Below are positions 57,403 through 62,383 of a DNA stretch of 64,000 nucleotides, in pieces. Origin of the DNA: Salinigranum rubrum (GTDB lineage Archaea > Halobacteriota > Halobacteria > Halobacteriales > Haloferacaceae); NCBI RefSeq assembly GCF_002906575.1, contig NZ_CP026309.1:2046001-2110000 (forward strand), given 5' to 3'. The notes below the pieces were generated by a model. The model saw only the letters and a program-made list of their open reading frames with translations, had not been told where the DNA came from and searched no databases. The translations under genes were made by a program, and so were the position numbers. Every line of letters starts with the position of its first letter. Positions within the stretch are counted from its first letter, which is position 1.

Positions 57403-58176
57403 TTAACGGATGCGAGCGATACCGCGCTCGAACACTTTGTCGTTCGGGAGGATGAGTTCCTCCTCGTCGGACTCGATGTGTGTCACGAACAGGTCCATCT
57501 CGGAAACGATACCCTGCGTTTCGCCGACACGGACCTCGTCACCGATTCCGTACGGCTGGTTGAGGAGGAGGTAGATGCCGGCCGCACCCGACGCCAGCAT
57601 CTGTTTGAACGCGACGACGGTGAGCACGATGAGGGCGAAGAAGTACGCGGCGAGTAACACGATCAGCGCTCCGGTCGCCACGCCGACCTGCGAGAGGGCG
57701 ATGAGCGCCGCCAGGAAGAGGACGCTGTACTTCGCGCCGAGCGGGACCACGTCGACGCGCTCCAGTTTGACCCCGCGGAGAAGTTCGGCTACGAACAGTT
57801 CGACCTTGTCGGCGACGACCAGCCCGACGATGAGGATGAGCACCGCCGCGAACAGCTGAGGGAAGAAGGCCGCGACGGCACTGCCGAACTGGTCGACGTA
57901 GTTGAGACCGACGAGCGAGAGCGCGACCAGGACGCCGAGGACGATGACGAAGTAGCGCGCGAGCCGCGAGACGATGACGACGGTCGAGGTGCCGAAGTCG
58001 CGGGCGGTCCGCTCGAACGACGTCCCCTCGATGGCGTCGGGGACGCCGAGACGCTGGAGGAGGCGCACGAGAAGCAGGCTCGTCAGATACCCCAAGACGA
58101 CGCCGAGAACGACCACACCGAGGGCGAGCCACACGCGTGTCGGGACCGTGTCGAGCAGCTCCACAGCCGTCTGCAT
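57403..58176 (-). CDS. MscS-family mechanosensitive channel
   Basis: 257 residues with four or five membrane segments. The C-terminal MscS pore-lining and beta region reads LASGAAGIYLLLNQPYGIGD, then RVGETQGIVSEMDLFVTHI. It is the short form of small-conductance channels that release solute on osmotic downshift. It begins 2 nt after the end of dacZ on the same strand, so the two form an operon, suggesting co-control of osmotic response and c-di-AMP. Confidence 0.85.
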   Translation of the reverse strand: MQTAVELLDTVPTRVWLALGVVVLGVVLGYLTSLLLVRLLQRLGVPDAIEGTSFERTARDFGTSTVVIVSRLARYFVIVLGVLVALSLVGLNYVDQFGSAVAAFFPQLFAAVLILIVGLVVADKVELFVAELLRGVKLERVDVVPLGAKYSVLFLAALIALSQVGVATGALIVLLAAYFFALIVLTVVAFKQMLASGAAGIYLLLNQPYGIGDEVRVGETQGIVSEMDLFVTHIESDEEELILPNDKVFERGIARIR

Positions 58177-58178
58177 CG

Positions 58179-58994
58179 TCAGTAGTCCTCCGGATCGATC
58201 TCCAAGATGAGCTGCCCGCCCTTGAACGCCCGTACCAGTCCGTCCGACTCCGAGAGCACGATGGCCGTCGCGTTCGTGTCACGGGTGATAGCGCCGCCGG
58301 CCATGTGCCGCGCGCCGAGCCCCTTCGGGATGTCGACACCCTCCGCGGAGGGTTCCAGGTACCGATAGGCGGAGACGATTTTCCCGGAGTCCGAGATGAT
58401 AAAGGCGCCGTCCAGCCGCGAGAACTCCTTCAGCATGACGTTCACGATGGGGTCGCCCACGTGGACGTGGGACTTCTCGAACGGGTTGTACGACAGCGGC
58501 CGCGACTTGTTCATCACCTTGCCGGCGTCGCCGACCACGAACAGCGCGCCGACGGGCTTGCCCTTCTGTCCCTTCTTCCCGAGTTCGATAGCCACCTCGA
58601 AGACGTCGCGGATGACCCCCGGTTCCGCGCGCGAGTGCGTGAAGAGGTCGTACAGCCCCGAGCGCATCGCCTCGTCCACGCGCACGCGTACGACCGAGTC
58701 GGGGTCGCCGTCGAAAATCGCGACGGAGCAGGCGAGGTCGTCCCCTTCGGCGACGAGGCCCCGGTCCATCGCGCCTTCGATGCCGAACCGGATGCGGTCG
58801 CGGACGTTCTTGAACTCCAGGGGGAGTTCGACGTACGACTCCGCTTCGACCGCGTTCTGCGGGGCGACGACCACGACCCTCGTCTCGGCGTCGTTGCCTG
58901 CGACCTGTTCGTAGAACGAACTGTTCGGTGAGAAGAGGAACACACCGTCGACGTCCGTGATGAGGTAATCGAGGAGGTCCGAGAGGGTCGCCAT
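58179..58994 (-). CDS. dacZ: Diadenylate cyclase (DacZ)
   Basis: A 271-residue DAC-domain enzyme that condenses two ATP to c-di-AMP. Substrate motifs: LDGAFIISDSG (DGA, about residues 195-205) and KGLGARHMAGGAITRDT (RHx, about 225-241); the second has RHM where bacterial enzymes often have RHR. The N-terminal ~100 residues form the archaeal pyruvate-kinase-like lobe. In Haloferax, DacZ is the sole, essential cyclase (established for that genus). Coupled with the mscS gene. Confidence 0.92.
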   Translation of the reverse strand: MATLSDLLDYLITDVDGVFLFSPNSSFYEQVAGNDAETRVVVVAPQNAVEAESYVELPLEFKNVRDRIRFGIEGAMDRGLVAEGDDLACSVAIFDGDPDSVVRVRVDEAMRSGLYDLFTHSRAEPGVIRDVFEVAIELGKKGQKGKPVGALFVVGDAGKVMNKSRPLSYNPFEKSHVHVGDPIVNVMLKEFSRLDGAFIISDSGKIVSAYRYLEPSAEGVDIPKGLGARHMAGGAITRDTNATAIVLSESDGLVRAFKGGQLILEIDPEDY

Positions 58995-59137: not shown

Positions 59138-59308
59138 TCAGTCAGTCTCCCGGTCGTCGATTCTCCCCTCGTACTCGGCCTCGGCGAACCGTTCGGATCC
59201 ACAGTTGCATCTGCCGTCGGAGGTCGGGACGAGGACTTCGTCGTCGACGAGACGGGCGGAGTACGGCTGGCCGCAGTTCTCACAGAGCACGGGGATTCGC
59301 TCAGTCAT
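59138..59308 (-). CDS. Small zinc-ribbon protein, paralogue of the 61780 gene
   Basis: 56 residues: CENCGQPYSARLVDDEVLVP then CNCGSERFAEAEY. CxxCGQP plus a later CxC forms a probable zinc site. It resembles the protein at 61780-61962 (CHGCGQP then CPECHSTVFEN) in Cys positions and loop length. It lies downstream of the HTH_10 gene at 59557-60213 on the same strand with a gap of about 250 bp. The ATG at 59308 begins the conserved part. Confidence 0.65.
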   Translation of the reverse strand: MTERIPVLCENCGQPYSARLVDDEVLVPTSDGRCNCGSERFAEAEYEGRIDDRETD

Positions 59309-59556
59309 TCGTTCGGTTGGATCTGACGGGCCGTCCGGAGCAGACGTCGGGACGTTCGCCACCGAGACGGAGCGCCGCCGATAACTCGACAGGGAACTCG
59401 GGACCGTCCGCCGGCGGCGGTATCTCTGCACGCTTGTGGACCGAACCGAGTTCCGTGACGGACCGAAGACGTCGTCGACGTAGGCGAGTGAGCATCCACG
59501 GACGCACTATCACTGGTCGGGTGAGTGGGCTTACTGGTTGTTTTAACAAGCTCGTT

Positions 59557-60213
59557 TCAGTTTCCGTCTCCACGATATCGTGTCAACGTGTCTTCGATCA
59601 GTGCCTTGGTCCCCCGTTGTAAGAGTTGCGAGACGGCCTGTTGTGTGATTCCCAACTCCCGAGCGACGTCCTCGCCGGTCACCCGTTTCGGAGCATCGTA
59701 GTAGCCGCTCTCGTACGCGATGAGGAGGGCTTCACGTTGCTTGGGAGAGACGCGGTAGTGCTCTTGCTCGGGTGTCTCGGGAGCGGTTATTCTGTGAAGC
59801 GTCACCGCTCCGAACTCCTCGAAGTGTTCTCGAAACTCGTGGAAGTGTTCGCGCGAGCCGAAGCGCACCTCGAGTTGCCACCCGGCAGCGGTTCCTCGCG
59901 CTTCGAGAACCACACCGTCGTGGTCGAGGATGACGTGGAGACGGTCGCTCACGACGTCGGCCCAGTAGAAATGGTAGAGGTGTGCGTCCTCGAAGGAGTC
60001 CGTGACTTCCGCGTCTTCGACCGTCGAGTCGTCGGTAACGGCCTCGTCGAACACGTCCCGGTCCGCCTCCAGAATCCACACGAACGGGATGACGTGTTTC
60101 GGACTGTGGGCGACCATGCGGTCCAACTCCGCAGTCGCTGTCGGGACGGCTTCGAGCGCGTCCCCCAGACAGAACGCGTCCGCCGCGACGCTGAACTCCG
60201 CGATGACGCTCAT
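59557..60213 (-). CDS. HTH_10 (Bat/bacterio-opsin-activator-like) transcription regulator
   Basis: 218 residues. The N-terminal ~150 residues form a GAF/PAS-like sensory fold with HLYHFYWADVVSDRLHVILD. The C-terminal HTH_10 motif reads LSPKQ-like YRVSPKQREALLIAYESGYY and ELGITQQAVSQLLQRGTKAL (about 155-205). Such proteins are haloarchaea-specific activators that respond to redox, light or metabolic cues. TATA-like GTTTTTCC is upstream on the minus strand. It diverges from the second HTH_10 gene at 60858. Confidence 0.88.
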   Translation of the reverse strand: MSVIAEFSVAADAFCLGDALEAVPTATAELDRMVAHSPKHVIPFVWILEADRDVFDEAVTDDSTVEDAEVTDSFEDAHLYHFYWADVVSDRLHVILDHDGVVLEARGTAAGWQLEVRFGSREHFHEFREHFEEFGAVTLHRITAPETPEQEHYRVSPKQREALLIAYESGYYDAPKRVTGEDVARELGITQQAVSQLLQRGTKALIEDTLTRYRGDGN

Positions 60214-60857
60214 ACCCGACCCTCTCCGCGTGAACGGAAAAACACCACTCTCCGGTGTGCTGTGCGGAGACGCTGCGAGACGTCGAGCACTTCTGTGGGT
60301 GCTGACTCTGCCGGGACGTGTGACGGGGCGAAGGTAGCTCTTCGCACTCTGATCCGGATCGCACCTACACCCCGAGGAGACGGACTCGGCTTCCCTCGTG
60401 GGGTCCATCGTATCTGCTGGTGAAATAAAGCCGTTAACTACTGGAGCCGAATCATGTTGACCGAGAACGGGGATTCAAAATCGGGGAGGGGAGCCGAGGA
60501 CGCGTCTGCAGTCGCCCGCCGAGGAGGACGTGCGGCGCCGGTGCTCACCCGCCAGCGGCGGACGTCCATACTCGACTTCAGCCCCTCCGCGGGGGTGATA
60601 TCGCCTCCGGTGCGACATCTGACGCCGGCGGTTTCCGCGAGTGACTGAATGTCGCGGCGGAGTGACGACAGTCCGAACCGTCACGTCCCGGGGTCTTTAT
60701 GTCGGAGGCGCGTACGTGTGGGCGGGAACGACATACGCACTGTGTGTCCGTGTCTCGCCGAGAGAGCCGGGTTACCGGTCTGGCGTGCGACGCTCTGTTC
60801 TCTTCGCGTGGTCGTCACGCGGGGCACATCACAGAGTCCCCTATTCCACACACAGAC
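60214..60857. other. Long intergenic gap between two divergent HTH_10 genes
   Basis: A 644-bp gap. No credible gene: the short frames within it are Arg-rich. It holds a TATA-like GTTTTTCC (about 60237-60244, minus side), CCCCTCCGCGGGGG (about 60590-60603, a near-perfect inverted repeat), and CTTTATGTC (about 60694-60702, plus side), which would leave a long leader before 60858. The length suggests a shared regulatory zone for both modules. Confidence 0.45.
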
Positions 60858-61622
60858 ATGAGTGTACCAGACGACACTGAGCGGACGGACCCCCAGTCGA
60901 GCGAGGAACAGCGCGACCGAGGCGACACGGCCGTCGTCCTCGAATGCACTATCCCCGCGTCGGACGTCGCGTTCGAGGGCGTCCTCGAGGCGTTCCCGGA
61001 CGTCGTCGTCGAGGCGGAGCGACTCGTCCCGACGAACCACTCGCCGCTCCCCTACCTCTGGACCGATGACGGATGCGACGAGAGGTTCCGCGAGGTCCTC
61101 GTCTCGGAGCCCGCAGTCGACCGCGTCTGGAAGATCGCGACGTTCTCCGAGGGCGCTCTCTACCGCCTCAGATGGAACGAGGGCCGAGGACGGTTTCTCG
61201 ACTGGCTGGCCGACTCACACGAGAGCATGGCCGTCCTCGAAGCGTCGGCCACGGATGGGGAGTGGACGATAAAGTTCCGATTTCCGGACCGTTCGGCGCT
61301 CAGTGACTTCCGATCGTTCTACCAGTCGAACGGCATCGACGTCCAGATACTCAGGCTCTACGACCTCACGCAGCCGAAGCTCGGGCAGTACAACGTCACG
61401 GAGAAACAGCGGGAGGCGCTCGTCCGTGCGCTGGAGATGGGTCACTTCGACATCCCCCGAGAGGCCACGCAGACCGAGGTCGCCGAGTCCCTCGGCATCA
61501 CCGCCAAGTCCGTCTCCGAACGACTCCGGCGGGGACAGGTGAATCTCATCAGCAACTCCCTGAACATCGGCGGACCGACCGGTGTCGGTATCGACGGGGA
61601 GGACGACCACCGAGACATGTAA
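60858..61622 (+). CDS. HTH_10 (Bat-like) transcription regulator
   Basis: 254 residues with the same architecture as the gene at 59557: acidic start, sensory domain (DDGCDERFREVLVSEPAVDRVWK) and C-terminal HTH_10 (YNVTEKQREALVRALEMGHF, then AESLGITAKSVSERLRRGQV). It diverges from its paralogue and is followed downstream on the same strand by its own zinc-ribbon gene. The in-frame upstream stretch is not conserved, so the ATG at 60858 is taken. Confidence 0.88.
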   Translation: MSVPDDTERTDPQSSEEQRDRGDTAVVLECTIPASDVAFEGVLEAFPDVVVEAERLVPTNHSPLPYLWTDDGCDERFREVLVSEPAVDRVWKIATFSEGALYRLRWNEGRGRFLDWLADSHESMAVLEASATDGEWTIKFRFPDRSALSDFRSFYQSNGIDVQILRLYDLTQPKLGQYNVTEKQREALVRALEMGHFDIPREATQTEVAESLGITAKSVSERLRRGQVNLISNSLNIGGPTGVGIDGEDDHRDM

Positions 61623-61779
61623 AGGGGTCAACTGATGGGGGTCAACAGACTTGTCAGCTCCACGACCACATCTGTTCCATGCGCCGAAACACGAACTGGC
61701 CCTCTCCCCGGCACTGCACCACCAGTCAGTCACGAGCGCAAGGCGTCGCCTCTCGAACGTCGCGGTCACGGGTAGGCCG

Positions 61780-61962
61780 ATGATTCCCGTATCCGTGGTA
61801 CTCCGCTGTCACGGCTGTGGACAACCCATCAGAGCCGTCGAACGCGGCGGGTCCGTGACCGTTCTCTTCGACCGCTGCCCCGAGTGTCACAGCACCGTGT
61901 TCGAGAACACGCAGACCGGGCAGGTCGTCGAGGCGTCGGCCGGATACGCGGCGGTGCGCTGA
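61780..61962 (+). CDS. Small zinc-ribbon protein, paralogue of the 59138 gene
   Basis: 60 residues: IPVSVVLRCHGCGQPIRAVE, then VLFDRCPECHSTVFEN, with two CxxC pairs. CGQP and the S..F tail of the second pair match the 59138 protein. It lies 157 bp after the HTH_10 gene at 60858-61622 on the same strand. The ATG at 61780 begins the conserved part. Function unknown; a metal-sensing cofactor of the adjacent regulator is possible. Confidence 0.65.
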   Translation: MIPVSVVLRCHGCGQPIRAVERGGSVTVLFDRCPECHSTVFENTQTGQVVEASAGYAAVR

Positions 61963-62050: not shown

Positions 62051-62299
62051 GGGACCGGATTTGAACCTCGCCGAGACGTTCCGGGTCGCTCGCTGCGCTC
62101 GTTTCCCGGGTTGTGACTCTTCTGATTCAAATCCACTCGTCACGATTTTCGTCCTCGCTGTCGCTCGGACAGAAAATGCGTGGGACCGGATTTGAACCGG
62201 GGCAAGACGTGCTCGCTCACTTCGTTCGCTGCGCGCGGCTTGCGGGGTTCAAACCGGCCGTCTGCACTTCCCGCTCTCACGTTCGTTCGAGCGGAGAAG
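62051..62299. repeat. Array of tRNA-Leu 3'-end copies with hairpins
   Basis: Downstream of tRNA-Leu (in its direction), copies of its T-arm/acceptor end recur: exact at 62177-62200 (24 bp) and shortened at 62051-62067. Each unit of about 125 bp also holds an inverted T-arm-like segment (62246-62257; 62124-62134) and a hairpin just before the next copy: GCACTTCCCGCTC/GAGCGGAGAAGTGC (62264-62276, 62289-62302) and ATTTTCGTCC/GGACAGAAAAT (62145-62154, 62167-62177). The two hairpins differ in sequence but keep position and length. They look like structured scars of integration or a repeated RNA element. The gap 61963-62050 shows nothing else. Confidence 0.7.
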
Positions 62300-62383
62300 T
62301 GCGTGGGACCGGATTTGAACCGGCGGACTCCTATGAGACAGCGTCCTAAGCGCTGCGCCGTTTCCTGGCTTGGCTACCCACGC
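62300..62383 (-). tRNA. tRNA-Leu(UAG)
   Basis: An 84-nt class II tRNA. The acceptor stem GCGTGGG/CCCACGC with discriminator A, D-arm with GCC/GGC, anticodon stem CAGCG/CGCTG with loop CTTAGGA (anticodon TAG), a variable arm around TCTCATAGGAG and T-arm GCCGG-TTCAAAT-CCGGT all pair (the outer T-stem pair is G-U). CCA is not encoded. It reads CUA leucine codons. The 3' end is duplicated in the adjacent repeat array, which suggests it has been an integration target. Confidence 0.95.

Follow-up and report, generated by a model that had tools for sequence, protein, structure and literature searches.

A covarying leader element upstream of one of two HTH_10–zinc ribbon gene cassettes in Salinigranum rubrum

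Computational analysis of a 64,000-nucleotide stretch of the Salinigranum rubrum genome (NZ_CP026309.1, positions 2,046,001 to 2,110,000; hereafter the window) identified two mirror-image pairs of genes, each composed of an HTH_10 regulator gene and a small zinc ribbon gene, with a structured leader element upstream of the regulator in one of them. Both groups, HTH_10 regulators and small zinc proteins, have undergone great expansion in haloarchaea, and little is understood about them. The two pairs, termed cassettes A and B, are not products of a recent duplication. They were probably assembled independently and belong to a regulator network of haloarchaea, with cassette B forming an HTH_10-ribbon operon controlled by a leader RNA, and this reading, taken as a whole, is the explanation we favor. 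The new element is the leader, which connects cassette B with a broader group of regulator genes in haloarchaea; the pairing itself has precedent.

Two cassettes of separate origin

The original prediction had proposed two HTH_10 genes and two zinc ribbon genes in this region, and all four are present with the domains ascribed to them (Table 1). Codon-position GC and protein charge support each gene and its chosen start and indicate that the stretches 5' of them are non-coding; longer starts for ribbons or regulators were ruled out by codon-position GC and basic composition. Pfam searches detected a BAT domain (PF15915) followed by HTH_10 (PF04967) in both regulators, at 45.1 and 58.7 bits respectively in HTH_10 A and 33.8 and 55.2 bits in HTH_10 B, and the shared domain order proposed originally is thus borne out. 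These were the only domains above cut-off in either protein, PAS and GAF domains of the Bat type included in the search. The modeled BAT region of HTH_10 B is an alpha/beta structure resembling Thermoplasma Ta1207 (5m86; Z 10.9, rmsd 3.2, 142 residues). Both ribbons contain CxxCGQP and a second Cys pair, again as anticipated, and both fall below every Pfam and NCBIfam cut-off, that of HVO_0758 included. An AlphaFold model of ribbon A is a small all-beta protein (pLDDT 80, pTM 0.54), with no reliable match among solved structures for the ribbons by sequence or for the model by fold. The HTH_10 start codons are 644 bp apart, the distance given in the original prediction. Each regulator is separated from its ribbon by a gap of 248 bp in cassette A and 157 bp in cassette B, and no TATA-like box was seen in the latter.

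Table 1. Features of the two cassettes and adjoining sequence (window coordinates)
Feature	Coordinates	Strand	Basis or remark
Zinc ribbon A, 56 aa, CxxCGQP...CxCGS	59138..59308	-	Start codon backed by codon-position GC
HTH_10 regulator A, 218 aa, BAT + HTH_10	59557..60213	-	Pfam domain matches
TATA-like box TTTATG, ~40 nt 5' of leader core	60696..60701	+	Promoter inferred, as in most relatives
Structured leader RNA core (putative), ~100 nt	60736..60836	+	R2 model 75 bits, E 2e-16
Leader helix P1, 5' strand	60743..60749	+	Pairs with 60822-60828
Leader helix P4, 5' strand CGCGTG	60805..60810	+	Pairs with 60816-60821
HTH_10 regulator B, 254 aa, BAT + HTH_10	60858..61622	+	Pfam; start 22 nt past leader core
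Zinc ribbon B, 60 aa, CxxCGQP...CPEC	61780..61962	+	Ribbon profile
tRNA-Leu	62299-62383

The mirror-image gene order, the common domain order of the regulators and the CGQP motif in both ribbons had led to the proposal of a recent inverted duplication of one two-gene unit, to which we now attach almost no credence. The identity between HTH_10 A and HTH_10 B is 32% (102 bits), and a paralogue in the same genome (L052) is nearer to both, scoring 124 bits with HTH_10 A and 118 bits with HTH_10 B. In a tree of 109 proteins HTH_10 A groups with a protein from genome G055 and HTH_10 B with one from G241, each clade being separately supported, and constraining A and B as sisters was 95 log units worse (AU p 2.9e-11). 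Ribbon genes are lacking at the closest relatives of HTH_10 A and B (L216 and L246), the closest to HTH_10 A being G055:C2 at 52%. An HTH_10 B homologue with 50% identity (L404) also has the leader, and its HTH_10 gene is followed by a DUF7344 gene. The ribbons belong to different subfamilies: BLAST finds a stretch of 10 residues as all that they share, and profiles assign ribbon A to A2 (80 bits) and ribbon B to A1 (85 bits). The leader is likewise found on the B side only.

The gene 3' of ribbon A is dacZ, whose product (58179-58994) is 96% identical to its Salinigranum salinum counterpart, and with the mechanosensitive channel gene that follows it, it makes a plausible c-di-AMP/osmotic pair (57403-58994). 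A conserved link between dacZ and the cassettes was considered and rejected, since 80 dacZ neighborhoods examined out to 6 kb contained no HTH_10 or ribbon gene of these families. On the other flank, beside tRNA-Leu, repeated fragments resembling tRNA gene ends (62051-62267) were observed; these occur near dacZ in other haloarchaea also, and are possible integration-site remnants.

Linkage of zinc ribbons to HTH_10 and DUF7344 genes

Linkage between HTH_10 and ribbon genes is real but uneven between the two ribbon types. The ribbon A family is large, occurring in 105 of 293 genomes with up to 16 copies per genome, and that of ribbon B is rarer, with 12 places above 45 bits. In the S. rubrum genome (4.97 Mb, 45 HTH_10 matches) the searches found three ribbons of these families, all three directly 3' of an HTH_10 gene, and no such ribbon was found in the other HTH_10 regions examined there. 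Among type-B ribbons, an HTH_10 gene is present within 1.5 kb at 10/11 loci and a DUF7344 gene directly upstream at 10/11, the usual layout being HTH_10, DUF7344 and ribbon on a single strand. Type-A ribbons are mostly apart from HTH_10 genes; 10 of 69 sampled loci have one within 1.5 kb (the same-strand upstream neighbor in eight), against a chance expectation of about 3% estimated from HTH_10 density. The co-occurrence suggested originally is accordingly upheld for type B and, for the most part, fails for type A. Fusions also occur, with the ribbon joined to DUF7344 (PF24035, 50.5 bits) in L155 and to HalOD1 (PF18545, 53.5 bits) in L177, the latter encoded behind an HTH_10 gene. The pairing first noticed in the window is non-random and recurrent, as the three local cases and the fusions attest, but its origin and novelty had been misread. 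DUF7344 is absent from both window cassettes, with no significant degenerate remnant in the two gaps. At the genome's third HTH_10-ribbon pair (L072, G000:C1:3337500-3342700), the open frame ahead of the ribbon matched DUF7344 weakly, at 17.6 bits, and may represent a degenerate fusion.

A putative structured leader 5' of HTH_10 B

A structured element upstream of HTH_10 B had been passed over in the original prediction. BLASTN picked out 112 bp of conserved non-coding sequence that lies 5' of HTH_10 B and also 5' of a ribbon-A-like gene in G070, and a DNA search located the same element ahead of HTH_10, DUF7344 and HalOD1 genes elsewhere. A first covariance model (R1) gave 20 strong matches in 14 of 119 genomes of the family. 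The second (R2), built from 18 sequences, detected the leader in 28 of 273 genomes of the order, or 27 of 272 excluding S. rubrum. These hits span five families, and roughly 100 genomes from beyond the order yielded none. Five plasmid copies were confirmed, in Halorussus halophilus, H. caseinilyticus, H. limi, Halomarina sp. and Haladaptatus halobius; the following gene is an annotated transcriptional regulator in four and hypothetical in H. limi. One further copy (L378, G063:C24:115018-115175) is broken by a Nextera-type adapter and its complement, an assembly artefact. No leader match was obtained at HTH_10 A, nor in the type-B HTH_10-DUF7344-ribbon operons, indicating that the leader is for the most part associated independently of the ribbon. 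None of 4227 Rfam models matched the leader in the window or in five other members up to E 1, and literature searches returned no description of it.

The secondary structure of the leader is conserved, with compensatory changes. The covariation score of the 18-sequence alignment was 0.275 compared with 0.196 for shuffled alignments, and that of a 36-sequence alignment not fitted to the structure, in which 86% of cells pair, was 0.253 compared with 0.184 +/- 0.009; none of 500 shuffles reached the observed value in either case, a result that counts as support and not as proof since shuffling leaves relatedness in place. Slid controls gave at most 0.121 overall and at most 0.117 on the 36-sequence alignment. 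Compensatory change is strongest at a CG/UA column of P1 (22/10) and at UA/CG and GC/AU columns of P4 (22/9 and 24/7). RNAalifold independently recovered P1 and P4 together with an extra stem alternating between GAAC/GUUC and GAAA/UUUC. Single-sequence folding energies are ordinary for this G+C-rich genome, with z about -1 for the window. A GTTCCGC box between motif and ATG complements GCGGAAC of the P4/P1 3' strand and also a CGGAAC box just 5' of the motif, with weak covariation, and competition between these pairings may act as an expression platform. Two further helices, P5 as an alternative at the 3' end and P0 as a closing helix, are plausible though weakly supported.

Across loci the leader keeps a consistent position, 5' of genes that are related in function. 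Most of 39 loci have a CTTATCC-like TATA box approximately 40 nt ahead of the motif, so that transcription would be expected to start just before it; both this box and a GTACGGAAC box are conserved upstream, and no TATA-like box was seen between leader and ATG. Start codons usually lie 20-33 nt 3' of the leader. The next gene is of regulator type at 41 of 42 loci, encoding DUF7344 at 27 (three of them degenerate), HTH_10 at nine, HalOD1 at two, a ribbon at one and weakly identified zinc-finger-like proteins at two (L409 and L416), with one lacking assignment. Several leader-HTH_10 loci continue into DUF7344; the one in the window continues into a ribbon. Short open reading frames of 28-39 codons were noted between leader and HTH_10 at six loci (L373, L374, L390, L392, L393 and L395), and at L377 one lies between leader and ribbon with its stop overlapping the ribbon start codon (ATGA). 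These may encode a leader peptide or small protein, for which Brb/Bp4 of Halobacterium offer a comparison. Tandem HTH_10 genes with one leader copy each were also seen at L395 and L392 (G083:C6 and G063:C24).

Interpretation and comparison with known systems

In the network that we envisage, an HTH_10 DNA-binding protein would be encoded with a small zinc ribbon, often together with a DUF7344 winged-helix protein. For cassette B we infer that the TATA-like box near 60700 directs transcription from a start behind it and that the first ~150 nt fold as a leader RNA closed by P1 with P2-P4 inside. This leader would respond to some ligand or protein and so set expression of HTH_10 B, with ribbon B presumably expressed by read-through; HTH_10 B would then bind target promoters with ribbon B as its protein partner, as has been proposed for Bat and Brz. 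Several observations count against this scheme. The 248 and 157 bp gaps are long for an operon, the nearest HTH_10 relatives are without a ribbon and most type-A ribbons lie away from HTH_10; cassette A has no leader, and the folding energies are unremarkable. With slightly less assurance than for the scheme as a whole, we lean towards regarding the leader as a cis-regulatory RNA of a new haloarchaeal class. Whether riboswitch-like or protein-responsive, it would join HTH_10, DUF7344, HalOD1 and zinc ribbon genes in a single signaling regulon, with CGGAAC/GTTCCG competition as its switch.

The element might instead function as DNA, with inverted repeats serving as an operator or upstream activating sequence to which a shared regulator binds. 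In favor of this, the repeat formed by P4 is inverted and near-perfect, with an almost invariant G+C-rich core, many leader targets are DNA-binding regulators, and leaderless transcripts are frequent in haloarchaea (PMC8241225). Against it stands the covariation in the GAAC/GUUC stem and in P1, the two strands of which are separated by ~75 nt. The TATA-like boxes being 5' of the element with none seen between it and the ATG, and its restriction to one strand with nearly constant spacing to the start codon, also favor RNA, and a DNA operator is in our view unlikely. We judge it improbable, too, that the gene associations reflect neighborhood only, with abundant mobile HTH_10, DUF7344 and ribbon genes meeting by chance or by island hitch-hiking and having no joint function. 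The recurrence of the same-strand HTH_10, DUF7344, ribbon order at short spacing in distant families, the fusions, and the sharing of one leader by HTH_10, DUF7344, HalOD1 and ribbon genes all speak against this, notwithstanding the number of HTH_10 matches in the genome, the location of several leader loci on plasmids and the lack of these genes from all 80 dacZ neighborhoods, that of S. salinum included.

The leader-controlled operon remains our preferred reading of cassette B. The recurrence of zinc ribbons and HTH_10 with DUF7344, sometimes fused, provides testable partners beyond Bat/Brz. Should the covarying leader common to these families prove to be RNA, it would join the very small number of structured regulatory RNAs known from archaea, and the signal of the regulon that it defines could be looked for with simple reporters.

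Haloarchaeal regulators that work with a small zinc partner have been described before, contrary to the original suggestion that no such system was known. Activation of bop in Halobacterium salinarum involves both Bat, an HTH_10 protein, and Brz, a zinc-finger protein of 60 aa; Brz substitutions C11S and H52F are as severe as deletion, the Brz effect is not via bat transcription, and the authors suggested cooperation at the protein level (PMC2253796). Small zinc-finger genes accompany both Bat homologues, boa2 and boa4, the one beside boa4 having a transcription start 134 nt 5' of its start codon (PMC2253796, PMC3184054), and light enhancement of a GFP reporter required brz, brb and bat together (PMC3184054). 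The window cassettes resemble Bat/Brz(/Brb) in having an HTH_10 gene adjacent to a separate gene for a ~60-aa two-knuckle zinc-finger protein, a likeness of size and knuckles. They differ in that Bat has PAS and GAF domains which the window regulators lack, in that the Brz motif is Cys/His whereas the window ribbons have four Cys, and in the DUF7344 association and structured leader, neither of which is described for Bat/Brz. Elsewhere in the S. rubrum genome (L042, G000:C1:254222-255173) the gene for a long HTH_10 protein, with an open frame of 735 aa, directly precedes a rhodopsin gene, likely a true Bat-bop pair, with no ribbon gene seen beside it; ribbon-profile searches of 30 rhodopsin loci likewise gave no match of note.

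The ribbons also resemble the Haloferax volcanii C(P)XCG micro-proteins HVO_0758 and HVO_2753 in size and in having two C(P)XCG-type knuckles (PMC11241148, PMC10716476), but differ from HVO_0758 in scoring below its cut-off. The leader differs from known riboswitches in having no Rfam counterpart, and the fluoride riboswitch of Thermococcus kodakarensis was the only experimentally shown archaeal example in 2021 (PMC8241225). It is nonetheless like natural riboswitches and structured mRNA leaders in being a conserved multi-helix element, placed just 5' of start codons, behind a promoter-like box and ahead of functionally related genes.
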